Origin: a virus | DNA length: 24,323 nt | Virus record (IMG/VR): IMGVR_UViG_3300024262_000232 | Location: 1-24,323 of that record | Reading direction: 5' to 3' (one strand) | Shown here: piece by piece, positions 3,635 to 21,810 of the stretch | How the letters are laid out: every line of letters begins with the position of its first letter | Numbering within the stretch: position 1 is the stretch's first letter | The notes under the pieces: generated by a model | What the model was told of the DNA's origin: nothing | Databases searched by the model: none | Seen by the model: only the letters and a program-made list of their open reading frames with translations | Translations under genes and position numbers: made by a program

Positions 3635-3997
3635 TTAAACACTGATAGAATTATACGGTAGTTTTCTGGACAAAGAATTGCTCGCAACAGCTTGATTATA
3701 CGCTTTTACGCCGTTCTTAATCTTGCCTGCTAAATCATCCATATCAAACTCGAACAATTCGACAGCCCCACACCCAGCATCTTTATTAACAGTTGAAAAA
3801 ATAGGCCAACCCATGAGTAAATGGGCCGTCATCGCACCACACCAACCATGAAAATCATTATCAAGACATAACTTAATATTAGAGAATTTACGAGCAAGAC
3901 AAGCTAACTGAAAAGGAGAAGGTAAAGCACTACCAATAGCCACAGCATTAAACCCCGCAGAACGTAACGCCACAGCATCAAAAACACCTTCTACCAC
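3635..3997 (-). CDS. TOPRIM primase-like protein, C-terminal part (downstream of frameshift)
   Basis: This is the TOPRIM half of a DnaG-type primase-like protein. It opens with VVEGVFDAVALRSAG, the TOPRIM glutamate motif, followed by VAIGSAL and LCLDNDFHGW. The last supplies the acidic pair, although the usual DxD is DND here. In the family these residues bind the metal ions for primer synthesis or strand cleavage. The only nearby start is a GTG inside the conserved core, so this is not an independent gene. It continues the frame at 3991-4512 after a one-base shift near 4056-4060. Read through, the two halves give about 292 residues, without the helicase-binding domain of bacterial DnaG. Confidence 0.7.
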   Translation of the reverse strand: MVEGVFDAVALRSAGFNAVAIGSALPSPFQLACLARKFSNIKLCLDNDFHGWCGAMTAHLLMGWPIFSTVNKDAGCGAVELFEFDMDDLAGKIKNGVKAYNQAVASNSLSRKLPYNSISV

Positions 3998-4512
3998 ATA
4001 GATCTCATCAGTAGCAAGATAATCATCAAAACCAAAAGAAACAACCCATAATTCGAAAAAGTGAATTTAGCGACTGCTACCCATTCAAGATCAGTCGAAA
4101 CGTTTCTAACACCAATCCCAACCAAACGACCATCACGATAGTCACAAAACGCTGGACCATCGATAACTCTGTAGCCATAACGGTCCAAAATATGGTCCCC
4201 AGGATACAAAAACAAGTCAAAAAGATCCTGCTCAGACAACAAATCAAAATCAATCCCGCAAAAATCATCAACAGGACAACCACGAGCCTCTAACCACTTA
4301 CCATGACGACATGGAACCAAAGCTGACTCTAATCTTTCCAGAAGTTCTGGAGTTTGTAGATTACGTGTGTTGTGGTTTAGTGCTAGAATTGGCTCGGGAT
4401 TAGCTACGCCAAAATCGATCTTGTCGAAAGTTGTAGCAATATTAGCACAAAGAAGATAATCGAAATCGTATAATGATAAATCGACTGTTTGGCACAAAAT
4501 GTTAGAGATCAT
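3991..4512 (-). CDS. TOPRIM primase-like protein, N-terminal part (frameshifted)
   Basis: The product is the N-terminal half of a DnaG/TOPRIM-type primase-like protein. Residues about 75-145 (HGKWLEARGCPVDDF ... AFCDYRDGRLVGIGVRN) match the pattern of the DnaG core just before TOPRIM, where a segment of the type 'FPIRDxxGRVIGFGGR' leads to VVEG. After VAKFTF the frame runs into an implausible hydrophobic tail (LFLLVLMIILLLM). The -1 frame instead reads FELWVVSFGFDDYLATDEIYV and joins smoothly to the TOPRIM motif. The break is at a run of five T (mRNA sense; A run at 4056-4060). The ATG at 4512 overlaps the previous stop as ATGA. No zinc-binding domain is visible. Confidence 0.7.
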   Translation of the reverse strand: MISNILCQTVDLSLYDFDYLLCANIATTFDKIDFGVANPEPILALNHNTRNLQTPELLERLESALVPCRHGKWLEARGCPVDDFCGIDFDLLSEQDLFDLFLYPGDHILDRYGYRVIDGPAFCDYRDGRLVGIGVRNVSTDLEWVAVAKFTFSNYGLFLLVLMIILLLMRSMW

Positions 4513-5297: not shown

Positions 5298-6131
5298 TCA
5301 ATAATCGGCAACACCGACTTGGCTAATATCCGTCGAATGAAGATGTTGTGCCAATTTTTCTTTAGCCTTATCAATTATATTCTTCACAGCCACACCAGAC
5401 ACACCCCCAAGCTCCTGTCCAATCTGTTTAAAAGCCATACCAGATATCACACCACCATCAGCTTTCGGACCAGTATAAGGAGTAGATCGATACTTGGGAT
5501 TATTACCAACACCACCCAACGACAACTTCAAAGCCTTAGCCTCACGAGGAGTCAACAAAGAATTATCAATCTTAATCTTCTGCCCATTACGAATGTAAAA
5601 ACCACGTCTAACTTCAAGAGACTGAGGTTGACGATCCATAGTAAACTGATCAATAATATCAAACAATCTAGCAGGAGACTGATTAAGAAAATCCTCATTA
5701 GAACCAGGCTCAAATTGAGCCCCTGGAAAGTCACCTCTAGTCGTATCACCATGACCTTTAACAGACTTATTGTGCTTATCCATCAAACGAACTATACGAA
5801 GTCGAATAAGTCTCCAAAAATAAGCAACATTATGCCCAAAATCTTTTTTCGCCCTTAAGAAATACTCAGCAGTATCCTGAATCGCAGATTCCAAATCGAC
5901 CGACTCAATAGCATAATCACCATAAGCCAACTTCATCCTTCTCTCGATCATATCCTTACGATCAATGAAATAAGTATAAAATACCCCAAAATCATTCATA
6001 TCCCCAGATTTCAAGAACTTGTTATATGCCTCATTTGCATCATTACTGCTCACCGCTTCTAGAATAAGCCCCTCAGTCAACAATTTGATACGGAGTGCCA
6101 CAAAAGAAGAGTGAATCGACGACAATTTCAT
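5298..6131 (-). CDS. Sigma-factor-like protein with region 2-like and region 4-like domains
   Basis: The product is 277 residues from the ATG at 6131, which has GAGG six bases upstream. A longer TTG frame from 6179 would read through the putative promoter. Residues about 79-117 (DLESAIQDTAEYFLRAKKDF, then a Trp/Arg-rich helix) resemble sigma-70 region 2. Residues about 192-262 start LTPREAKALKL and contain FKQIGQELGGVSGVAVKNII, which reads like the region 4 helix-turn-helix. In the family such proteins direct RNA polymerase to promoters, so this may be a second phage sigma factor or a DNA-binding regulator. Its C-terminal half is duplicated in the next gene upstream. Confidence 0.6.
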   Translation of the reverse strand: MKLSSIHSSFVALRIKLLTEGLILEAVSSNDANEAYNKFLKSGDMNDFGVFYTYFIDRKDMIERRMKLAYGDYAIESVDLESAIQDTAEYFLRAKKDFGHNVAYFWRLIRLRIVRLMDKHNKSVKGHGDTTRGDFPGAQFEPGSNEDFLNQSPARLFDIIDQFTMDRQPQSLEVRRGFYIRNGQKIKIDNSLLTPREAKALKLSLGGVGNNPKYRSTPYTGPKADGGVISGMAFKQIGQELGGVSGVAVKNIIDKAKEKLAQHLHSTDISQVGVADY

Positions 6132-6155
6132 GACGAGCCTCAATAGAAAAATGTT

Positions 6156-6170
6156 CCAATTATATTTGGC
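6156..6170 (-). promoter_or_regulatory. Putative late promoter motif
   Basis: Minus-strand GCCAAATATAATTGG lies 25 bases before the ATG at 6131. It shares the core CAAATATA(A/G)T with the sites at 7818-7831 and 16688-16701. It recalls the AT-rich -10-only late promoters of T4-like phages but is not the T4 TATAAATA. The call is by comparison within this window only. Confidence 0.45.
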
Positions 6171-6224
6171 TCTCAACACCTACAAAAAAGCCTGACCATT
6201 TCTGACCGAGGATACCCAACGACT

Positions 6225-7790
6225 TTATTTTAAAACCCACCAATCATTCTTTTTAACCGCAACATCACGAAACTTCTTATCATACAAAGCTTTAAGATAC
6301 TTCATGTTAGGCTTCTCTCCGACACTTCGCCAAAATCGACCTAATTTCCTAGCAGTCGGAAATCTAATAACCCCCAACCCTTTCTGATCGGCATACCTTC
6401 TGATCATTTGGATCAACTCATCTTGCCAATTGCTAAAAGAAGAAAGAATCCTCCTGTTAATATCAGATTGTTCGGCCAACGCACCACGAATAAGATCAGA
6501 CTGAATCTCAATAACAACCAAAGTCTCATAACCTTCAAATTCGAAACCAGCCGCCCAACCAATCGCCTTAGAACCAAGCTTATGCTCCGGCTTAGTCAAC
6601 TTATCATAAACATCACGACCAAACTCATCATCAGCATCATGCAACTCAATCATAAAAGGCTCACCGTCGTACTTCTGAGCCTCCAAGTGAAGCCCATGTT
6701 TCGCATCACTATACCAAGGAGCAAAATCATCAGAATATTTAACACCGTAACGCCCAGACACCTCATCGAATTTGGGCAACAAAGCATCTACAACAGCTTG
6801 TACAAATGGTCTATCAGAAGAAGCAGCAACCTTTTGAATTGTTTCTTTATCAGCATTAACCAATTGATTAATCAAAGTACGATAATCAAGAGATTCAACA
6901 CTTTCGGTGATACTCCCACTCATGAAATCCTTTTCTGATGAGTCTGCTTCCTGATCCCACCTAGAATCAACACCACTATCATAAGCATCCTCTAGATCAC
7001 CAGTTTCAACATTCATACCAACCTTAAACGTCGCACGACCCCTATCAAGCTCCCAACCATAATAAAGATACTCCTCCAGATCGAAATATTCATTAACAAA
7101 ATCAACAATATCACCAACAACACTAGCCAAATCACCACCAACTTTTACACCCCGTTTACTAAGCCCCTCCCACTTAGAACCAGCATCTATAAAAGGTATC
7201 ATCAAAGGCTCACCATCCTCAACATCCGCAAGATAATCATCAATATCTTCAACAGGCTCAGCATAATTATTCAACTTGGTATAATCATTCCATATCTGAA
7301 CCACCATCTTAGCAGCCTTAATAACCGACTCAGTGTCATCTGATTCACCCGACTCACCAATAACATCATCAAAGCTGCTGCCCGACTGCAAATTAATCTC
7401 AAGCTTGCGTTTCGCAGAAGCAAGCAACGTCCTAACCATAGGATCATTGACACCCAAAGCACGACTAATCTCAGATAAATTGCTACCAGACAGCTCCCCA
7501 ACATCATCATTGTTATAAGGATTACTCCTATAAGCCTGATTCCTCGTCGGCCCACCCAAAAACAACTTCAAAGCCTTAGCCTCACTAGGGCTCAAAAAAT
7601 CATTATCAATCTCCACACCATCCCTATAAACCCCACGATTACGCTCCATACGACTAGGATCACGAGGCAAAGTAATCTTATCAATCAAATCAAACAATCT
7701 AGCAGGAGACTTACCCAACAAATCATGAACAGAATCAACATTATGATAAGCTGGACCATGATCCGACTCACTGATAAAAGAAAGTTTCAT
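6225..7790 (-). CDS. Fusion of sigma region 4-like domain and EIQSD polyvalent-protein domain
   Basis: The product is 521 residues from the ATG at 7790 (GGAG upstream; a GTG at 7802 is the alternative). Residues 22-135 are closely related to the C-terminal half of the next gene's product: SPARLFD, EAKALKL, YRS, and a helix-turn-helix at about 101-131 (NLSEISRALGVNDPMV). Residues about 150-290 are acidic and unassigned. Residues about 345-490 contain VVIEIQSDLI and a following GLGVIRFPTARKLGRFW, resembling a domain of very large phage and mobile-element 'polyvalent' proteins, whose activity I cannot state. The N-terminus MKLSFISES and an internal SITES look like prohead-protease sites, so it may be packaged and cut. 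Confidence 0.6.
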   Translation of the reverse strand: MKLSFISESDHGPAYHNVDSVHDLLGKSPARLFDLIDKITLPRDPSRMERNRGVYRDGVEIDNDFLSPSEAKALKLFLGGPTRNQAYRSNPYNNDDVGELSGSNLSEISRALGVNDPMVRTLLASAKRKLEINLQSGSSFDDVIGESGESDDTESVIKAAKMVVQIWNDYTKLNNYAEPVEDIDDYLADVEDGEPLMIPFIDAGSKWEGLSKRGVKVGGDLASVVGDIVDFVNEYFDLEEYLYYGWELDRGRATFKVGMNVETGDLEDAYDSGVDSRWDQEADSSEKDFMSGSITESVESLDYRTLINQLVNADKETIQKVAASSDRPFVQAVVDALLPKFDEVSGRYGVKYSDDFAPWYSDAKHGLHLEAQKYDGEPFMIELHDADDEFGRDVYDKLTKPEHKLGSKAIGWAAGFEFEGYETLVVIEIQSDLIRGALAEQSDINRRILSSFSNWQDELIQMIRRYADQKGLGVIRFPTARKLGRFWRSVGEKPNMKYLKALYDKKFRDVAVKKNDWWVLK

Positions 7791-7817
7791 AATAAACTCC
7801 ACACAAATTGACCAAAC

Positions 7818-7903: not shown

Positions 7904-8080
7904 CTAAGTTCCTACCTCATCGCACAATTTATCAACGATCACTTGACCAAAAGCCTTATTACTCACACCCTCACCAGAAGGCAAAGAATTTACAACTCTC
8001 TTACAACGCTCCCGAGCAAAAGATTCAAAGAAACCAAGGATCGACTCATTCGAATGATGCCGCTTCGCAAGATTTACCTT
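7904..8080 (-). pseudogene. Start-less coding remnant behind the methyltransferase
   Basis: The 271 bases between the methyltransferase stop and the next gene contain a 58-codon open stretch with protein-like composition (for example ESILGFFESFARERCKRVVN). It has no ATG, and the first TTG or GTG comes only after codon 30. It lies in the -1 frame relative to the methyltransferase and starts exactly where that gene ends: one added base in the GAAAGG at 8077-8082 would fuse it to the methyltransferase as a C-terminal extension. It may be a frameshifted tail, a sequencing error, or a relic of a gene broken by insertion. I recognise no family. Confidence 0.45.
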
Positions 8081-9909
8081 TCAAACAAAACAAAAAATTC
8101 TTTAGAACTTTTAGAACGGCTCGGAATAATCAATTGGTGCGGTACTCCGCCTAATTTCATTAGATATTCGGCCATCCGTTCATCCGTGTGAAACAACACT
8201 TTCTCAGATTGATTCAATGATTTCTCTGTCAATGGTTTCAAAAAACCATCACACCAATCATCGAACTTTCCATATTCAGTGCCGTCTAAATAGTCTTCCT
8301 TATTATAAAACGGCGGACTAGTCAAAACAAAATCACTCTTTTGCCAAGCTGCTTCTTGCCATGGCAATTTTTGTAGATCGGCAAAATTGTCTAATTTGTC
8401 ATTTAAATATTCAAGGCCAGAAAAAGAAATACCTGGATCACAGGCTGAATATGGAATATTCAAATAATAAGCAGCTAACAATCTATTCCCCCACCCTGCA
8501 CATGGGTCAAACCATGAACCTGACAATTTAAAGTGTCTAACTGCTCTGATAATGGTACCAGCACTCAACAAGCTCGCCCTACAAAAACCAACAAATTTCA
8601 TCTCTCTAACAAGACGTTCAGGATTCAAAGATCCTCTTTCTAAGAAAGCCTGCACGCCTCTCCTAACCCTGCCCGGTTTGGTTCTAAAATCCGCTATTGG
8701 CGTCGAATTCCCAAGTTTAATCCAATTGATCCAAGGTTGGCAATGTTCAAACAATGCATTATCAGGATTGTTAGAAGCGATTTTCAACTCGTCATCTATA
8801 ATAGCATCTAGAGAATCAATTGTCTTTTCTAACAATGGTGTGAACGAATCTCTCTTAGTCTTCCACCCAGTTCTCAAGAGACATTCTGTAAATTGATCAA
8901 CTATAGAAAGACGATCGACACCACGAGGGATATAAAAATCATGAATCGTTTTCATAAAAAATGGATACATATCATTCAAAATGTCAAATCGGACCTTTTT
9001 CCTATCAAGGAACAATTCTTCAACATCTTGATAGATATACTCTCCTAAAGATCTGACATTGGACTTATTGCTGAACAACAATGTAAAAATAGTAGTTCGT
9101 TCTTTAACTTTCCATGTAGCAATTGGAAGTCTAGACCCAATTGCTCGCAGGTGGTTTTCGAATTTACAAACAATCGATGCCGTCCAATGCATTTTATGGC
9201 CTTTAAGACCACTCTTTAATCTAATACGTTGATAAGATATACTACCATCACCGTCAAAATATCCACGAACGAAATGATGGAATAAGTAATCCGGGATACT
9301 GTCAAGTATTACTTGACTTGTTCCATCTTTCCAATCGTCAAATCCTTTATCTCTAAGATCCTTTCCCATCTTTTTTGATTGAAAATTAAACATTGCTTTG
9401 GGGTGACGTCGTGGACTTGACCACAAGTTAGGATCATCACATCCTACAAATGATGCAAATCGTTTGAGTAAAATATCATCATACTTTGCTAATGATATTT
9501 GTATCCCAGACTTTGACGATAAATGTCCATCAGCTAATAAGAACCCAACCCAATAAGCTTTTTCTGGAGTGTCGATACACTCAAACACATTTTCATTAAG
9601 AACATAGGTACGTATACCTGGATGAATAATAGTGACTTCGTGGCTCTTAAGAATTCTTCTGATGGTACGATAGTCAACTTTCAATTCAATCGATATTGAA
9701 CGAGCCGACTCGCCGTTTTTATATCTTTCGACCACCGCCGTTTCATCAAGCTCTTTTTTCTGCTTAGTGATCAAATGACCAAGGCCAAGCTTTTTGATTC
9801 TGTTGGTGACGGTTGTTGTACTAACACCATATTCACGACCTATTTGGCCAGATGTTTTTGATACAAGTTCTAATATTAATTGATCGATTGTTAAATTGAA
9901 TTTTGCCAT
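8074..9909 (-). CDS. LAGLIDADG homing endonuclease fused to DNA methyltransferase
   Basis: This is a 611-residue fusion. Residues 1-95 hold two helix-turn-helix units (SGQIGREYGVSTTTVTNRIK; ESARSISIELKVDYRTIRRI), typical DNA-recognition modules. Residues 119-130 (YWVGFLLADGHL) and 213-223 (FVRGYFDGDGS) are the two LAGLIDADG helices with their catalytic acidic residues. From about 319 a different protein follows: FDPCAGWGNRL at 467-477 is an AdoMet-binding motif I, and LTSPPFYN at 529-536 is a motif IV, as in N4-cytosine or N6-adenine methylases. Met319 (MKTIHDFYIPRG) may be the original methyltransferase start. The endonuclease would cut a recipient genome. The methylase could protect DNA. 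The gene stands alone between terminators. Confidence 0.85.
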   Translation of the reverse strand: MAKFNLTIDQLILELVSKTSGQIGREYGVSTTTVTNRIKKLGLGHLITKQKKELDETAVVERYKNGESARSISIELKVDYRTIRRILKSHEVTIIHPGIRTYVLNENVFECIDTPEKAYWVGFLLADGHLSSKSGIQISLAKYDDILLKRFASFVGCDDPNLWSSPRRHPKAMFNFQSKKMGKDLRDKGFDDWKDGTSQVILDSIPDYLFHHFVRGYFDGDGSISYQRIRLKSGLKGHKMHWTASIVCKFENHLRAIGSRLPIATWKVKERTTIFTLLFSNKSNVRSLGEYIYQDVEELFLDRKKVRFDILNDMYPFFMKTIHDFYIPRGVDRLSIVDQFTECLLRTGWKTKRDSFTPLLEKTIDSLDAIIDDELKIASNNPDNALFEHCQPWINWIKLGNSTPIADFRTKPGRVRRGVQAFLERGSLNPERLVREMKFVGFCRASLLSAGTIIRAVRHFKLSGSWFDPCAGWGNRLLAAYYLNIPYSACDPGISFSGLEYLNDKLDNFADLQKLPWQEAAWQKSDFVLTSPPFYNKEDYLDGTEYGKFDDWCDGFLKPLTEKSLNQSEKVLFHTDERMAEYLMKLGGVPHQLIIPSRSKSSKEFFVLFER

Positions 9910-9933: not shown

Positions 9934-9993
9934 TTCTAAATATAACACATATCAAATTATGTTTGAGCGATTTGATATGTGTTATATTTAGAA
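9934..9993. repeat. Perfect 24-bp inverted repeat with 12-base spacer
   Basis: Bases 9934-9957 and 9970-9993 are exact reverse complements. Each arm contains TAAATATAAC in one orientation, resembling the core of the putative late promoter, so the site carries the motif on both strands. It lies 25-84 bases upstream of the endonuclease-methyltransferase ATG. It could be an operator or promoter, a cruciform or RNA hairpin, or a scar of the endonuclease insertion. The arms are too AT-rich for a typical terminator. Confidence 0.8.
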
Positions 9994-10027: not shown

Positions 10028-10059
10028 TAAAAAGAAAGCCCGGCGTTAACCGGGCTTTC
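10028..10059 (-). terminator. Strong rho-independent terminator after the major capsid gene
   Basis: A 10-bp perfect stem (GAAAGCCCGG with CCGGGCTTTC) with a six-base loop is followed on the minus strand by TTTTTATAT. It lies about 35 bases past the major capsid stop and closes the head-gene transcript before the homing-endonuclease gene. Confidence 0.85.
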
Positions 10060-10093
10060 TCGTATCGTTTTCGTTTTAACGGGTTAATCTCGT

Positions 10094-11644
10094 TTAGAGA
10101 TTTGTCACGTTAAGGGGAGCATAGAAGAGACCACCATCTTCCAAAAGCTTCTTGCCATACCTAGTCATCACTCCCTTCGATGGGACGAAGGAATCTGGAT
10201 TCATGACGGTCGGAGTGGAGAGAAGTGGTACATATGGTGCGTAGATGTACCCCGTGTCGAGAGCCGTTGGTCCCTTGAATCCCATGAGGATTTTACAGTT
10301 GGGGAACAATGGGTCTTTGTACAGCTTCATGCGGCTTTGGAGTTGTCCGACGTTGAGGATTCCGAGGTTTACGCCTTCGGTGGCGAATGCGTCGGATGCT
10401 CGGAAGTCGTTCAGTTGCTCGAACTTGCTGCTCAAGTCAGCTGAGGTGACCATCCAGTTGGCTGGTCCACGTAGTGTGGTTCGGTGGATGATGTTACTCA
10501 TCTCAAGAACCTTGTACATGAGGGCCAAGTTTCGGTCGCTGAAGTTGACGGAGGCACCGGCTGCGGTTGCGAAGTTGTGGGTCGATCGGATTGCTGCAGC
10601 GACCAGGAGGTCGTTGAGGATTTCGCGGTCGACTTCGGCAACTACTTCGTCAGCCATGAGGTTGAGGAGGGTGTCTTCGGCGTCCATGTCGTAGACTGCC
10701 TTCATGTCTTGAGCTGCTTCAAGGGACCAGCTGGTCTTCAATCGGCGAGTTGTGGCAGCAACTGAGTCGCTGTCGATGCTCAAGGTTACTTCTGGCTGAA
10801 GTGGGTTGGCTTCGAGGTCGTACTCGTAGTTAACGCGGGCTACTGCGTCGACTGGAAATGATCCAGAGGATAGAGTAACGGTGACTTGGCCACTGGTGTG
10901 GTCGAAGACGGTTGCGTTTGGAGTGATGAGGTCGACTGCGATTGCGGTGGTGAAGTCGGTGCAGTCACCGATTGCAACACCGTCTGGGTCGCCGTTGCTG
11001 TCGAAGGTGATTCGCAAGCATGGTACGGCGTCGTCGCATTGTGGGTTGGCGTCTGCAGCGTTGCTGAAGACTTCGACCATTACTGAGCCTGCGAGAACTG
11101 GACGGTGTGCCAGGGTTCCGCTTACTACTGTGCTGCCACCGCCGATGGTGAGGTCTTCACCTCGAACTTCCTGGCTGGAGTAGTATGGGTCGATCGCCCA
11201 GCCGTTGTAGCGGCTGAAGGATTGTGATGTGTTCTGACGCATGATTTGGGTGCCAGCTTGTGTTTGGCCCTTGGTCAGTGCGTAGCGGTATCGGATGTAG
11301 AAGATCAACGAGGCTGGTTGGCTCATTGGCTGTACGCCGACCAAGTTGTCGCTGATGAGCTTGGCGTAGCTCTTGCGGATCATTGGGAGGGCGAAGCGGG
11401 TGAAGTCGGCCAGGTTGTTGGTTGTGGTTACATCTTCAGTGATGAGTCCGAAACCGTTGCCGTTGCCTCGGCCTTCCATGATCTTGTACTGGTTGTCCAG
11501 TACGCGAGCGAAGGTTGGGAGGCGGTGCTTTGGAATCTCGGGGCACTTTTTGATGACCGAAGCCCACTTTTTAACGAGGCTGTGGCTTTCTTCGGTGATG
11601 ACGCGGTAGTCTTTGTGTTCTGCTGGGTTTGGTGTGGCTAACAT
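10094..11644 (-). CDS. 23: Major capsid protein (T4 gp23-like)
   Basis: This 516-residue protein forms the hexameric head lattice. The strongest evidence is residues 84-110, where LPMIRKSYAKLISDN leads to LVGVQPMSQP, the conserved gp23 motif. Length (T4 gp23 has 521) and position after protease and scaffold agree. GLITE at 66-70 followed by DVTTTNN fits the prohead-protease consensus (I/L-x-E), so mature protein should start at Asp71, close to the cut at residue 65 in T4. The start is ATG at 11644 with AGAGGT eight bases upstream, a strong ribosome site. The coding sequence is GC-richer than the genes to its left, which fits high expression. Confidence 0.93.
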   Translation of the reverse strand: MLATPNPAEHKDYRVITEESHSLVKKWASVIKKCPEIPKHRLPTFARVLDNQYKIMEGRGNGNGFGLITEDVTTTNNLADFTRFALPMIRKSYAKLISDNLVGVQPMSQPASLIFYIRYRYALTKGQTQAGTQIMRQNTSQSFSRYNGWAIDPYYSSQEVRGEDLTIGGGSTVVSGTLAHRPVLAGSVMVEVFSNAADANPQCDDAVPCLRITFDSNGDPDGVAIGDCTDFTTAIAVDLITPNATVFDHTSGQVTVTLSSGSFPVDAVARVNYEYDLEANPLQPEVTLSIDSDSVAATTRRLKTSWSLEAAQDMKAVYDMDAEDTLLNLMADEVVAEVDREILNDLLVAAAIRSTHNFATAAGASVNFSDRNLALMYKVLEMSNIIHRTTLRGPANWMVTSADLSSKFEQLNDFRASDAFATEGVNLGILNVGQLQSRMKLYKDPLFPNCKILMGFKGPTALDTGYIYAPYVPLLSTPTVMNPDSFVPSKGVMTRYGKKLLEDGGLFYAPLNVTNL

Positions 11645-16712: not shown

Positions 16713-18803
16713 TTAACCATACACAGCGGCATTCACGTCATCTTGAGTAATTTTACCAGTCGCTTCGTGATGTTCAAGTGCCACGATGGCATTTTCGCGA
16801 TCAATATCAAGAAGTAACTGCTCACGTTTGATCGTGTGTTCAGCAGCTTCTTGAATAATTTTTTGATCAGGTACTTCACCGAATATTTTTTGAGAAGCTT
16901 CATCTGGATCATAATATTCCAACGTATACTTCTCTCGAATCTCGTCGATACCTTCTAAAACCAATTCATCACTTTTCTTATTACTATTTTGTGTTCCGAC
17001 CGGAACCCCAAGTAATTCATTAGATTCAATAATCGCAGAACAAATTGAATTGTCGCGTTTATTCTTACCCAAAAGAATGAGAGATTGAAGCTGGGATATT
17101 TTACCTCTTACAACAGCTTGTTTTTCTAGAATAGCGTTTTGTTGCTCTAATTTTTGGAGCCTATAATCAAGGGATTCACCAAACATTGATTCTTCGTCGT
17201 CTTCGCCTCCGCCAACGGCGTCTAACAATGCACCACCGCCCAGATCTCCACCGCCACCTAGATCATCGCCACCTAGATCATCGCCGCCTAAATCATCGCC
17301 GCCCAGATCATCGCCGCCCAAATCATCAGCTGCATCTTCACCACCAAACATATCAGCACCGCCGCCACCAAGACCGCCGCCGCCACCAAGACCGCCGCCG
17401 CCAAGTTCTGGAGCAGCCTCATCACCCATGTCTGTGTTGCCCTTGAGCATCATTTGTTCAATTTCGTCTGGGCTCAAATCGGTGAAGTGTGATAGAATCC
17501 ATTCTTTAGGGAACCATCCCAATTCGCGAAGGTCGGCCATAATATTGACACGAGTTTGCCATGTCTCAATTCGATACAATTCTTCCATTGCCGAATTGAC
17601 CATCATAGTGGTCCAGAAAGAATTCATCTCATCACGAGAGTAACCCTTTAATGCCAAATGCACAAGAGCAATTTTAGTCAGACCAACAGCCATGACTTGT
17701 TGAATCCAACCAACATTCTTGGCGAAATCACTACTAGTCTGACTTAATGGTTTCCCATCTTCACCACCGGTCTTGTCACCAATACCAAGTCTGGATGGGG
17801 GGATTTTGGTGGGAGCTATCATTTTCTTGAGGAAGTATTCAATATCCTCAATTTGTCCGAGATTGTCAGCACCTTGGAGAGTCTCAATATCAGGCCCTGA
17901 ACCATCTGGGCGTTTTGGTAGAAAGAAATCGTCTTCTTGGGTCAATGGTGCATATCGTTCATCGAATTGACCATTAGATGGGTTATAGAATCTTTTGTTC
18001 TTAAATCCAGCTGCGATTTTACGCAAGTATTCAGGAACCTGAGTGCTGGGAATATTACCAACTGGAATGGTGAATTTCCTCTTTTGGGGGGCACGAGTCA
18101 ATCGATAGATGACAGCCGCACTTTCCATCAGAATCAGTTGTTTGAAAGCTTTCCGCCCACCTTCGATAACTGACTTACCATAAGGGTGGTATTTGGCTTC
18201 AAAATTCGTCAAGCGGAAGTGGACGACTTCCCACGGGTGTAAGAAGTATGATTGATTGAGTTCAGGGTCGGCATAATGGAATGCAACAAGATCACCAGTT
18301 GACGTTTCGACTCTGGTAAAGTTGTAGACATCGAGCCTTTTAATACCGATAACGCCGGTTCTGGTCTTGTCGAGGATGATTCGAAATGCACAATCGCCGT
18401 ACTTGCAGAGATAGCGGACCATTGATCGACATTGGTGATCGATCATCAAAGTCTTGTTGAAGAGATCTTGGACTTCTTTTTTGACTCTGGTACTTTCGCC
18501 GTAAACTTGGACGATGTGGCCGGTTTCTGGATTGACTACACATGATTCGTCAGCGTACATGTCTAGGGCGAGAGAGATCTCACCCATTTCATCCATCTTG
18601 TCGTAGTCTTTGTATCTCTCACGTCGGAAATAGTTGACTTGAATACTTTGGATAATTGCCGATTGTAGCCCGTTTCGCTCGGGACCGGCACTAGTGAGAG
18701 TATCCAGTGAGGGCTGGTCTTGGAGAATGTTTTCATGGCGATATAGACCAGAGCCACTAATATAGGCTCGTAATCTATCGAACGCCAGCCAATTACTAGG
18801 CAT
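16713..18803 (-). CDS. 20: Portal protein (T4 gp20-like)
   Basis: This 696-residue protein forms the dodecameric ring through which DNA enters the head and on which the prohead nucleates. Residues 232-340 carry the gp20 signature: IYRLTRAPQKRKF, VGNIP, YLRKIAAGFKNK, EDDFFLPKR, ETLQGADNLGQIEDIEYFLKK and PPSRL. It is about 170 residues longer than T4 gp20. The extra length is a C-terminal Gly/Asp-rich linker with GGDDL repeats (about 460-535) and a helical tail with a coiled-coil-like stretch (DYRLQKLEQQNAILEKQ). The ATG at 18803 overlaps the terminase stop by eight bases, so packaging motor and portal are translated together. Confidence 0.92.
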   Translation of the reverse strand: MPSNWLAFDRLRAYISGSGLYRHENILQDQPSLDTLTSAGPERNGLQSAIIQSIQVNYFRRERYKDYDKMDEMGEISLALDMYADESCVVNPETGHIVQVYGESTRVKKEVQDLFNKTLMIDHQCRSMVRYLCKYGDCAFRIILDKTRTGVIGIKRLDVYNFTRVETSTGDLVAFHYADPELNQSYFLHPWEVVHFRLTNFEAKYHPYGKSVIEGGRKAFKQLILMESAAVIYRLTRAPQKRKFTIPVGNIPSTQVPEYLRKIAAGFKNKRFYNPSNGQFDERYAPLTQEDDFFLPKRPDGSGPDIETLQGADNLGQIEDIEYFLKKMIAPTKIPPSRLGIGDKTGGEDGKPLSQTSSDFAKNVGWIQQVMAVGLTKIALVHLALKGYSRDEMNSFWTTMMVNSAMEELYRIETWQTRVNIMADLRELGWFPKEWILSHFTDLSPDEIEQMMLKGNTDMGDEAAPELGGGGLGGGGGLGGGGADMFGGEDAADDLGGDDLGGDDLGGDDLGGDDLGGGGDLGGGALLDAVGGGEDDEESMFGESLDYRLQKLEQQNAILEKQAVVRGKISQLQSLILLGKNKRDNSICSAIIESNELLGVPVGTQNSNKKSDELVLEGIDEIREKYTLEYYDPDEASQKIFGEVPDQKIIQEAAEHTIKREQLLLDIDRENAIVALEHHEATGKITQDDVNAAVYG
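17252..17326. repeat. Five tandem 15-bp units in the portal gene
   Basis: Units starting at 17252, 17267, 17282, 17297 and 17312 read CGCC(A/G)CC(T/C)A(G/A)ATCAT on the plus strand and encode GGDDL five times. The array sits in a wider Gly-rich linker at about 17215-17415, whose copy number could vary by slippage. Confidence 0.9.
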
Positions 18804-21800
18804 AATATGATTTTCTCTTTACAACAGCTTGATCGATTGTTTTCCTATCGCCTAACCACAAGTCTCTAGCAAAGCCAGCTACTTGGTCTTCATAAGAGGT
18901 AGATTCTTCGCCAGTATCGGGATGGTCGACCGAAACTGGGCCGACTAAACTCGGATCATGTGCCATGATAGTAGCATCGGGTGATTCACCCATGAAACTA
19001 ATATCCAAATCTCTCTTGAACGGCAATACTTTACTTTTATCTGGATCAGGATTACTTACCAATGCCACTAATCCAAGACCAGCACCTAAACAAAGGTCGT
19101 CGTGACAACCGACTTCAGCTCCGGTTTTCCCGGTTGGCCGACCACCACGATCACGATGATTAATATATGTGCATAATTGATCATGCAATCGTGAACTATA
19201 AACCTTCACACAACCTGGAGATCCCAACAAGTCAACCATCAACTTATTAAGCCCGATTTTAGTAATGTCAGTTGTGAAGTGTCCATAAGGGTCAAGCTTT
19301 GGTTTCATACCAGCTTTATCAGGAATCCGAATTCTTCGCCAGAGATTGGGATAACCATACTCAAGACGAAGTTCATCGATAACTCCATCACCACCGTTAT
19401 TGCGTTCCACATTAACCATTGCATTATTGTAGAATCGACCTAACATGTCAATATAAGGACAAAGCATCTTAGGGATACATCGCATCATCATTTCTGCGAC
19501 TTGTTCACCCGTCTCAAGACAAAAAACTTCCAAACCATGAAAGTCATTGCCACGACCAGTCATCGTATCAACACCCAAAGTATAAGTGTAACCTTGGGGA
19601 GCATCAGGATGTTGGCGAACCGGCATTTCCCAAAACCAGAGCCCTTGGTTACCCTCAAAATCGAAGTCGAGAACAATTGGTTCTCGCTTGATAGGATGCA
19701 TATATTGATGAATACCCTTGGCGATTTTAATGGGTTTACGGATCATTCCATCAATAGTATCGAGGTTCACAGGTGGGAGAACTGTCTTACCAGAACTAAC
19801 AACCCGAGCCAAGATTTCCTGATCGAATTTCCAAGTTTCTCCTTCTTCAGCCAGAGCATTGTATTGCTGTTCTAACCAAGGAGACCAATATGGACCATAC
19901 TTTTCTCGTTCATCAGCAGTTTGGCACTCACGAATTCCATCACATGGAGCGATTCGAACCTGCTCATTAGTACCCTTGTCTTTGTATTCAATTTCCCAAT
20001 CCATGTCGTACCAGTTGATCTCAATCAGATTGAAACCATTAGTGCCTTGCTCAGCTCCTTTGAGCATTTTGTAGTACCAGTCACCCATACCGTTTAATGT
20101 GCTCACCACGATGACACGTCCACCGTGCTGAAGCGTGTTGTGACTTACAAGGCTGTTGGAAATGTAACAATGTTTCTCGGGGACTTGGATATCGAATGTT
20201 TCTCGAATGTCCTCTTCTACTTTGACAATTCGATCGACGAAAAGCTTGTTTTTGACTAGCCAGCTGTTAATATCGCCCACATTGAAACGCAGCAGACCAC
20301 GAATATCATTATATCGAATGCGACCGTAAGAACCACATCGACTAATCGTTTCATCGGTTGGATTCTCCCTAATTAAAGTATTACATTCTTGTTCAAATAA
20401 ATGAACTAGCACTGGATGATCTGTGTTGTATGATTGTCCAGATTCAGCACAAAGACGAAGATCATGTCTGGTAGAATAAAAATGATCTAAAAAGACATTG
20501 CCCAAATCGGAATCGACTACAATTAATCGATGTTGTTCTGTCGAAGTGGTTGTAACAGAAATTGGAAATCCAAAATCGAACATCAGATTTTGAATATCAT
20601 TAACCAATTGTTTGCTATCGAAGATAGCACCAATCCTTTTGCCGCTCGCACTTTGAGCGTCGATTATTCCACACAAGACGTGATAATATTGATCACGGCC
20701 AAGGGCGAAAATTTCATCACTAATTGAACGTTCATCTAATGGAGTAGTCAATTGAAAACCATACTTCTCGGCAAGTTCGAAAACTTTAGGTGAAGTGATT
20801 TTCAGTTGTCTTTTGTTGATAACATAGCCATTGGGTCCGAAGACAGCTTCACAAGCCTCTGCGAATTCTTTAGTTTGCAATTGGCTGTTGAATTTGGTGT
20901 GCACGTCTTTACCGACTTTGGTAGCTCTTGGGTATAAGATACCAGCCATGTATAATTCGTGATTGATCTTTTGTTTTGTCGGTAGATCACCAAGCCTGGT
21001 AACGATGTATTCACCAGGGGTGACATTGTTGACATATTGCCAAACGTAGTCGCCGTTCGGGCTTATTACTCTGATTCGATGGTTTGGAGTAGCTGTTATT
21101 TCTAAGCCTAGTTCTGTCGTGATCTTGCGTACGGGTGCTACGCCGGATAGATAGACTTTATCGGCTGAGAAAATACCTTCGTCTGTTTGGATATCGATAT
21201 TGATATCTTGCCAACGTTCTTTACCTTTTGGCAATGAACCCATACGGATTAAACCACTGCTGGTTGTCAACAGTGTTTCGGCTACAACACAAGAATATCC
21301 TGATGCCCACATACGGTCCATACTCGGTATAAAAGCGGCTTCGTCAATAATATTTAGTGAGGCAGAGTGAGATCGGAGCACTTCTGGACTACTGGTCAAT
21401 GATTTGATGCTTGATCCGTTGGGGAATACAATTTCGTGCTCATTGCGTTTGGTCGGTTCCCAGAGTTTCTGCATCCATTCTGGGAGGTTATCAAACAAGA
21501 AAGTGATGTTACGTCGCAAGAAATTTTTAGCGTCGTCTTCTTTCTTAGAGATAATTAGAATGGTTTGATAAGGGAAGAACATTCCTTGGTGCAAAGCATA
21601 AGCACCTGAGATTTGGGAAATTCCACACTGTCGGCATTTTCGGACGATATTAAAACGGTGCGAGTCGAATGAATCTAGGGCTTTGAGCTGATATTTAAAT
21701 GGAACAAATGGAACGATACCAGCAGATGGGTGTTGGATACTGCAATGTTCAGATAAGAAATAAGCTATAGATTTCTGGCATTTTAATATTTCTTTTTCGA

Positions 21801-21810
21801 GTTCGCCCAT
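18796..21810 (-). CDS. 17: Large terminase subunit (T4 gp17-like) with intein
   Basis: This is the DNA-packaging ATPase and nuclease. The 1004-residue precursor holds a 385-residue intein (residues 174-558). The joined exteins have 619 residues, close to T4 gp17 (610). The ATPase has a deviant Walker A, RKCRQCGISQ (58-67), with Lys displaced from the classical place as in many phage terminases. LNIIDEAAF (152-160) is Walker B and VVSTLNG (568-574) the coupling motif. The nuclease has acidic residues Asp748 (LGVDTMTGRG), Glu801 (NVERNN) and Asp904/905 (GCHDDLCLG). The start is ATG at 21810, just after the probable small terminase. Confidence 0.95.
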   Translation of the reverse strand: MGELEKEILKCQKSIAYFLSEHCSIQHPSAGIVPFVPFKYQLKALDSFDSHRFNIVRKCRQCGISQISGAYALHQGMFFPYQTILIISKKEDDAKNFLRRNITFLFDNLPEWMQKLWEPTKRNEHEIVFPNGSSIKSLTSSPEVLRSHSASLNIIDEAAFIPSMDRMWASGYSCVVAETLLTTSSGLIRMGSLPKGKERWQDINIDIQTDEGIFSADKVYLSGVAPVRKITTELGLEITATPNHRIRVISPNGDYVWQYVNNVTPGEYIVTRLGDLPTKQKINHELYMAGILYPRATKVGKDVHTKFNSQLQTKEFAEACEAVFGPNGYVINKRQLKITSPKVFELAEKYGFQLTTPLDERSISDEIFALGRDQYYHVLCGIIDAQSASGKRIGAIFDSKQLVNDIQNLMFDFGFPISVTTTSTEQHRLIVVDSDLGNVFLDHFYSTRHDLRLCAESGQSYNTDHPVLVHLFEQECNTLIRENPTDETISRCGSYGRIRYNDIRGLLRFNVGDINSWLVKNKLFVDRIVKVEEDIRETFDIQVPEKHCYISNSLVSHNTLQHGGRVIVVSTLNGMGDWYYKMLKGAEQGTNGFNLIEINWYDMDWEIEYKDKGTNEQVRIAPCDGIRECQTADEREKYGPYWSPWLEQQYNALAEEGETWKFDQEILARVVSSGKTVLPPVNLDTIDGMIRKPIKIAKGIHQYMHPIKREPIVLDFDFEGNQGLWFWEMPVRQHPDAPQGYTYTLGVDTMTGRGNDFHGLEVFCLETGEQVAEMMMRCIPKMLCPYIDMLGRFYNNAMVNVERNNGGDGVIDELRLEYGYPNLWRRIRIPDKAGMKPKLDPYGHFTTDITKIGLNKLMVDLLGSPGCVKVYSSRLHDQLCTYINHRDRGGRPTGKTGAEVGCHDDLCLGAGLGLVALVSNPDPDKSKVLPFKRDLDISFMGESPDATIMAHDPSLVGPVSVDHPDTGEESTSYEDQVAGFARDLWLGDRKTIDQAVVKRKSYYA
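20137..21291 (-). mobile_element. Intein in the large terminase, with degenerate LAGLIDADG region
   Basis: Splicing motifs are complete. Cys1 opens CVVAETLLTTSSG. Block B is TATPNHRIRV with its His at intein residue 71. Block F is TFDIQVPEKHCYISN. The end is LVSHN, followed by extein Thr. Removal joins WASGYS to TLQHGGRVIVV, between Walker B and the coupling motif. The middle has two LAGLIDADG-like helices, LYMAGILYPRAT (113-124) and VLCGIIDAQSASG (205-217). The first lacks the catalytic acid, so the endonuclease is probably weak or dead while splicing should still work. Confidence 0.92.

Follow-up and report, generated by a model that had tools for sequence, protein, structure and literature searches.

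A LAGLIDADG endonuclease joined to a putative DNA methyltransferase behind a phage major capsid gene: a candidate homing element with built-in protection

Introduction

Homing endonucleases usually escape their own cut in that insertion or recoding removes the site. The DNA analysed here (the window: 24,323 nucleotides, positions 1 to 24,323 of IMG/VR record IMGVR_UViG_3300024262_000232), which belongs to a virus of bacteria, carries next to the major capsid protein (MCP) gene a single reading frame in which a nuclease of the homing type is followed by a putative DNA methyltransferase (MTase). What does a modification domain do at the end of such a nuclease, and why does the gene lie where it does?

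Results and discussion

The in-frame join is genuine

Exploring the sequence, we found that the gene opens with an ATG at 9909 and closes with a TAA at 8076-8074, that it has no internal stop codon and that the plus strand of 8074-9909 is full of stops. The 611-codon minus-strand frame described in a first-pass annotation of this DNA is therefore real and uninterrupted. Residues 1-311 hold two helix-turn-helix (HTH) units and a two-motif LAGLIDADG nuclease, and residues ~330-611 the MTase (Table 1). A 116-kb contig (IMGVR_UViG_3300009149_000014) that is 99.9% identical carries the same fusion gene. Over 19.9 kb, 15 substitutions and one indel separate it from the window, none of them at 8940-8970, where the two halves meet. 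The same in-frame fusion occurs in 10 further viral proteins of 31-40% identity (L004-L011, L037 and L074; L006 and L009 are near-copies of each other), and homology runs unbroken across the nuclease-MTase join in all ten. Because an independent contig and ten relatives show the same join, a faulty assembly or a recent chance read-through of neighbouring genes, for which only the general risk in metagenome contigs speaks, is refuted and has practically no probability left. Separate genes for the two halves, which the first-pass annotation had named as counter-evidence if carried by close relatives, were found in one relative of another phage lineage (L210), where nuclease and then MTase are encoded by two overlapping genes, whereas the ten near relatives are fused. 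The proposal that Met319 marks the old start of the methylase was rejected, since the relatives have W, F or others at this position, which is thus not an ancient start codon; it also lacks a clear ribosome-binding site ahead. Divergence of the two halves is correlated (Mantel r 0.74, p 2e-4), and dN/dS was ~0.12-0.16 in each half between L006 and L009, a pair with few changes. Judged from these comparisons, the fusion is old and common to the relatives. Among 50,697 phage records none covered 80% of the fusion protein, and a PDB sequence search with the protein as a single query gave nothing useful.

Table 1. Features of the fusion gene and its surroundings (window coordinates)
Feature	Position	Strand	Basis or remark
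Fusion gene, 611 aa, HTH-HTH-LAGLIDADG nuclease and putative DNA-type amino-methyltransferase	8074..9909	minus	
First HTH unit, residues 8-47	9769..9888	minus	AlphaFold2 helices 8-17, 20-27, 31-40
Second HTH unit, residues 56-89	9643..9744	minus	helices 56-64, 69-76, 80-89
LAGLIDADG motif 1, YWVGFLLADG, predicted catalytic D127	9526..9555	minus	kept in 10/11 aligned fusions
LAGLIDADG motif 2, FVRGYFDGDG, predicted catalytic D221	9244..9273	minus	kept in 10/11 aligned fusions
Helical N-terminal part of MTase unit, residues 330-440	8590..8922	minus	
MTase motif I, FDPCAGWGNRL, residues 467-477, predicted SAM site	8479..8511	minus	DP..G.G.R invariant in 22 divergent sequences
MTase motif IV, TSPPF, residues 530-534, predicted catalytic	8308..8322	minus	TSxP invariant in 22 sequences
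HNH homing endonuclease gene remnant at the 3' junction of the fusion	8012..8077	minus	match to L062 HNH protein
Long inverted repeat (RNA hairpin) directly 5' of the fusion start	9934..9993	minus	folding
Terminator-like hairpin of the capsid gene	10032..10061	minus	
MCP gene, T4 gp23-like, neighbour of the fusion	10094..11644	minus	phrog_138 major head protein, E 1.5e-72

A homing-type nuclease half and an amino-methyltransferase half

The two N-terminal HTH units and the complete-looking LAGLIDADG enzyme noted at first reading were borne out by several lines of evidence. AlphaFold2, run on an 11-row alignment (pLDDT 83.9, pTM 0.70), placed two three-helix HTH units ahead of a LAGLIDADG domain. 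Residues 18-309 matched the endonuclease family phrog_4645 (E 1.8e-45), Pfam LAGLIDADG_3 matched with E 7.5e-6 and covered residues 213-233 at motif 2, the first HTH unit gave weak profile matches to HTH_11 and NCBIfam HTH_Cbp1 and the second matched HTH_23 (E 4.7e-5). Foldseek matched the fold to 3uvf, 3eh8 (I-AniI), 1mow (E-DreI) and 3qqy (I-OnuI) at E ~1e-6, and both catalytic acids are present. By these features the nuclease half is a two-motif LAGLIDADG homing endonuclease with intact active-site residues and is predicted to cut. I-MsaII of Staphylococcus phage MSA6, of the intron-encoded type, and phrog_4645 share the HTH and LAGLIDADG arrangement with 27-31% identity, but these matches stop at the nuclease end and leave the MTase half outside. 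An intein-encoded nuclease was rejected, as the fusion protein has no Intein_splicing match in a library that detects one in the terminase (TerL), and an intron-encoded one was rejected for want of any Rfam match at the gathering threshold; weak microRNA-type Rfam matches near the fusion correspond to the inverted repeat and were judged to be chance. Membership of a known defence system was also rejected, PADLOC giving only a weak HTH/CARF match to the fusion protein. The inverted-repeat region folds with -69.7 kcal/mol (z -11). Hairpins are known ahead of homing-nuclease genes in T4-like phages (PMC2988022), and by analogy with the T4 homing nucleases this one possibly controls translation or transcript stability.

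The methylase motifs FDPCAGWGNRL and TSPPF were both found in the C-terminal half, as claimed. This half alone had no significant Pfam match (N6_N4_Mtase, 0.078). A profile of 22 MTase sequences matched DNA cytosine-N4 MTases (8s9n, E 1.2e-7) and aligned to these and to DpnA as two pieces in reversed order. Like the N4-cytosine and DpnA-type enzymes (8s9n, 2zie, 5hek), the fusion MTase has motifs I and IV, the latter of the xPPF/Y kind, but its motif I precedes motif IV whereas theirs follows it, a circular permutation. On this sequence evidence the C-terminal half is an xPPF amino-methyltransferase with motif order I-to-IV. A class I MTase fold was recognised by Foldseek in the homologous domain of L013 (E ~1e-7), with RNA and protein amino-MTases (Trm11, METTL5, PrmA) as the best matches; because of these matches, DNA as the substrate is something that we infer, from the profile match to DNA MTases and from the fusion to DNA nucleases. 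The helical N-terminal part is apparently common to stand-alone members of the family too. Searching genome contigs with the C-terminal half alone returned no relative by close match, and the MTase profile found scattered MAG contigs only; cultured phage records contained mostly stand-alone MTases, plus two megaphage fusions (LR745208 and LR756508).

A nuclease slot behind the major capsid gene

All ten related fusions sit directly downstream of a T4-type MCP gene, except that an HNH gene intervenes in L010 and L011, and T4 segD occupies the same place, between capsid genes 23 and 24 (PMC2988022). We then collected 46 distinct slots by MCP alone. A nuclease was present in 33 of them, an MTase in 18 and neither in 13. 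Nuclease domains numbered 29 within the first kb downstream of MCP versus 5 in the whole 8 kb upstream, counted with search models that were made from slot proteins and thus favour the slot. Every MTase-bearing slot (18/18) had a nuclease, encoded either by the MTase gene itself or by its neighbour, and no nuclease-free slot had an MTase (0/13; Fisher 3.7e-4, indicative since the phages are related). LAGLIDADG and MTase likewise adjoin the capsid gene in a second group of phages, whose capsid belongs to a different family (phrog_2522; L210, L223, L249, L251). From gene content and position, the slot that follows MCP is a hotspot of homing nucleases, and the MCP gene is the probable target locus of the fusion. 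In many slots an HNH nuclease stands without any recognised modification domain, indicating that protection is not required by every homing gene there.

L011 (5173-9028) has two MTase fusions in tandem behind MCP with an HNH gene ahead, that is, stacked elements: a LAGLIDADG fusion that has lost both catalytic acids, then a PD-(D/E)XK fusion. In the L074/L076 phage, another locus carries a further, divergent LAGLIDADG-MTase gene (L190, L191), behind a 575-aa ORF that has no PHROG match.

The same plan is built from different parts

The MTase domain was found joined to LAGLIDADG_3, LAGLIDADG_2 (PF03161), TnsA-like PD-(D/E)XK (PF08722), HNH and Vsr (PF03852) nucleases, and to another PD-(D/E)XK type identified by motif only. 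At the MCP slot its partners, fused or adjacent, are LAGLIDADG, HNH, TnsA-like and other PD-(D/E)XK nucleases (in L068, L082 and L087 HNH-HNH genes adjoin HTH-MTase genes); the Vsr-MTase and LAGLIDADG_2-MTase fusions are located outside it. The label of L013 rests on a PDF...VEIKP motif, and among the Foldseek matches listed for its model, filled by MTase matches, no nuclease appeared. In a quick tree of 102 MTase domains the nuclease labels require 22 changes, at least 3 of them, for LAGLIDADG_3, on well supported branches. In or close to the slot, nucleases of the Vsr-like MTES_1575 type instead have Mom as their C-terminal domain (PF25680; eight proteins, E 1e-14 to 1e-19). Mom of phage Mu modifies DNA by a chemistry unrelated to methylation. 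Because Mom replaces the MTase beside these nucleases, the recurring theme is nuclease plus DNA modification and no single domain. The cut-and-protect idea of the first-pass annotation thereby gains strong comparative support, as several unrelated nucleases and two unrelated modifiers appear to have met at one hotspot.

The HTH, MTES_1575 and Mom fusions comprise L004 (7035-8894), L034 and L054, and, 3-5 kb upstream of MCP, L006, L007, L048, L050 and L074. Loss of the nuclease with the MTase kept was seen in L011, described above, and in L098 (nuclease core deleted), and a possibly weakened MTase motif with the nuclease present in L007 (TSTPF) and L095 (TSIPY); both sets are too few for a test. 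In L162, L185 and L186 the MTase domain is joined to DUF7487 (PF24308), which, by analogy with the nuclease partners of this domain, may be a nuclease. Long zinc-finger proteins (L114, L124, L129, L136, L171, L176) end in the same MTase and have a middle of ~400 residues with no Pfam match, which is perhaps an undescribed nuclease.

Traces of movement

The closest relatives have different genes in the slot, L013 (93% MCP identity) a PD-(D/E)XK-MTase and L062 (88%) an HNH nuclease alone. At the 3' junction of the window's fusion we detected 22 amino acids that are 82% identical to residues 203-224 of the L062 HNH protein (E 6e-7; 66 nt at 77%, E 3e-9), and the TAA stop of the fusion is formed at the edge of this remnant. 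As read from these matches, the fusion overwrote an earlier HNH gene. Comparison of L006 with L009 revealed a step in identity: the last ~170 nt of MCP are 98-100% identical and the fusion 95-100%, upstream the two differ strongly, and MCP is a mosaic. This step is as expected of transfer with co-conversion, although an assembly chimera may explain it, since the L006 contig ends at the fusion. Displaced MCP ends were absent from the window and were found, among the relatives, only in L101, with a 52-nt copy (51/52) of the MCP 3' end beyond its PD-(D/E)XK-MTase gene, and in L004, where two fragments of 41 nt and 29 nt from a different MCP 3' end lie past the LAGLIDADG-MTase gene. From these displaced or duplicated ends, insertion seems to enter the MCP 3' end and to restore the reading frame. 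The upstream MCP end of L004 has 8 synonymous differences in 10 codons, a recoding that could by itself confer immunity; within the duplicated stretch of L101 recoding cannot do so, because both copies are nearly identical.

A cut-and-protect homing element and its alternatives

We regard the fusion as probably a free-standing homing endonuclease gene in the slot behind MCP, equipped with a built-in DNA methyltransferase for cutting and protecting. From its place and the traces of transfer, its mobility as a homing element is very likely; that the modification protects the element's own target has a somewhat better than even chance. The HTH and LAGLIDADG half would recognise a long site within the capsid 3' end and cut genomes in which this site is unmodified; when the break is repaired from the carrier genome, the fusion gene would be copied along with that 3' end. 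An insertion next to MCP would restore the capsid frame; the target, if it lies there, would therefore survive in the carrier, and the tethered MTase half would methylate the carrier's own site and so prevent cutting. The exact target, the cutting, the action on DNA and the protection are steps that we infer.

The strongest competitor, which we consider unlikely, is a single-chain restriction-modification enzyme for phage-phage exclusion that modifies its own genome at short sites and cuts rivals, homing being secondary. Type IIC/IIG enzymes combine the same two activities (PMC4081073), and Mom and MTase are both classic genome-modifying enzymes; yet the fusions lie mostly in the slot behind the capsid gene with signs of locus-specific transfer, LAGLIDADG enzymes recognise long sites and the usual specificity domain was not seen in the AlphaFold2 model. 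Still less probable is anti-restriction or general modification of phage DNA by an MTase that met nucleases only through a shared exchangeable slot. Stand-alone MTases do occur in other phages away from annotated homing-type nucleases (Alsa_2, Vibrio 2.058.O), for example in replication or nucleotide-metabolism clusters, but the nuclease that accompanies the MTase in all 18 slots, the repeated independent fusions, the correlated divergence of nuclease and MTase halves and the parallel fusions with Mom argue against a chance meeting. Catalytic motifs kept across very divergent members, a sequence profile that fits DNA N4-cytosine MTases best and the unrelated DNA modifier Mom in the same place make it improbable that the MTase-like half serves in DNA docking or regulation, or methylates RNA, and leaves the target unprotected, even though its best structural matches include tRNA and rRNA amino-MTases and the window's MTase has no visible large target-recognition domain.

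Returning to the homing element with its own protection, we give about even chances to a broader reading. In it, such genes form an undescribed class of homing elements with their own immunity, in which any homing nuclease (LAGLIDADG, HNH, Vsr-like or PD-(D/E)XK) is combined with a DNA-modification domain (MTase or Mom); these elements would escape suicide by modifying themselves rather than by destroying or recoding the target, and would thus be able to target essential, highly conserved capsid sequence. If true, tethering a modifier to the nuclease would give immunity although the target is left intact, and homing endonucleases and restriction-modification would be joined in one mechanism, a direct and testable bridge between these two forms of selfish DNA. 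At one place behind the capsid gene, nucleases of several folds occur with modifiers of two chemistries, which points to strong, repeated selection; the arrangement would also explain why modification enzymes turn up among phage structural genes and offers new site-specific nuclease-modifier enzymes.

Comparison with known systems

The free-standing Seg and Mob genes of T4-like phages resemble the fusion in that a nuclease gene lies beside the MCP gene, with occupants often swapped and a stem-loop upstream, but Seg enzymes are GIY-YIG rather than LAGLIDADG nucleases and segD is in the opposite orientation (PMC2988022); the text of this review of T4 homing endonucleases has 0 occurrences of 'methyl'. 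Type IIC/IIG enzymes likewise place a nuclease N-terminal to a methyltransferase in one chain, built from a PD-(D/E)XK nuclease, a gamma-class NPPY MTase and a specificity module (PMC4081073), whereas the fusion combines LAGLIDADG with a compact SPPF MTase and lies in a phage homing hotspot. The window's nuclease is thus of another kind, though some slot relatives have PD-(D/E)XK motifs, and its MTase has TSPPF and only 144 residues from motif I to the end, which leaves no room for a C-terminal specificity module. 'ShiLan' HNH insertions in phage methylase genes also bring a homing nuclease and a methylase to one locus, but in that case the methylase gene is the target, which the nuclease enters out of frame, whereas the fusion is one in-frame protein (PMC11855218). 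A homing nuclease fused to an MTase or to Mom was not found in the open-access literature searched.

Other features of the window

The terminase large subunit (18796-21810, minus strand) contains, within residues ~186-558, an intein (PF14890, E 2.8e-11) whose LAGLIDADG-like motifs are degenerate. Two overlapping ORFs lie at 3635-4512 (minus), the shorter with a Toprim domain; one gene appears to be split here, because the window differs from the sister contig by one base (4037). The neighbouring proteins encoded at 5298-6179 and 6225-7802 (minus) share a 123-residue segment of 46% identity, which by this similarity is a diverged duplication.
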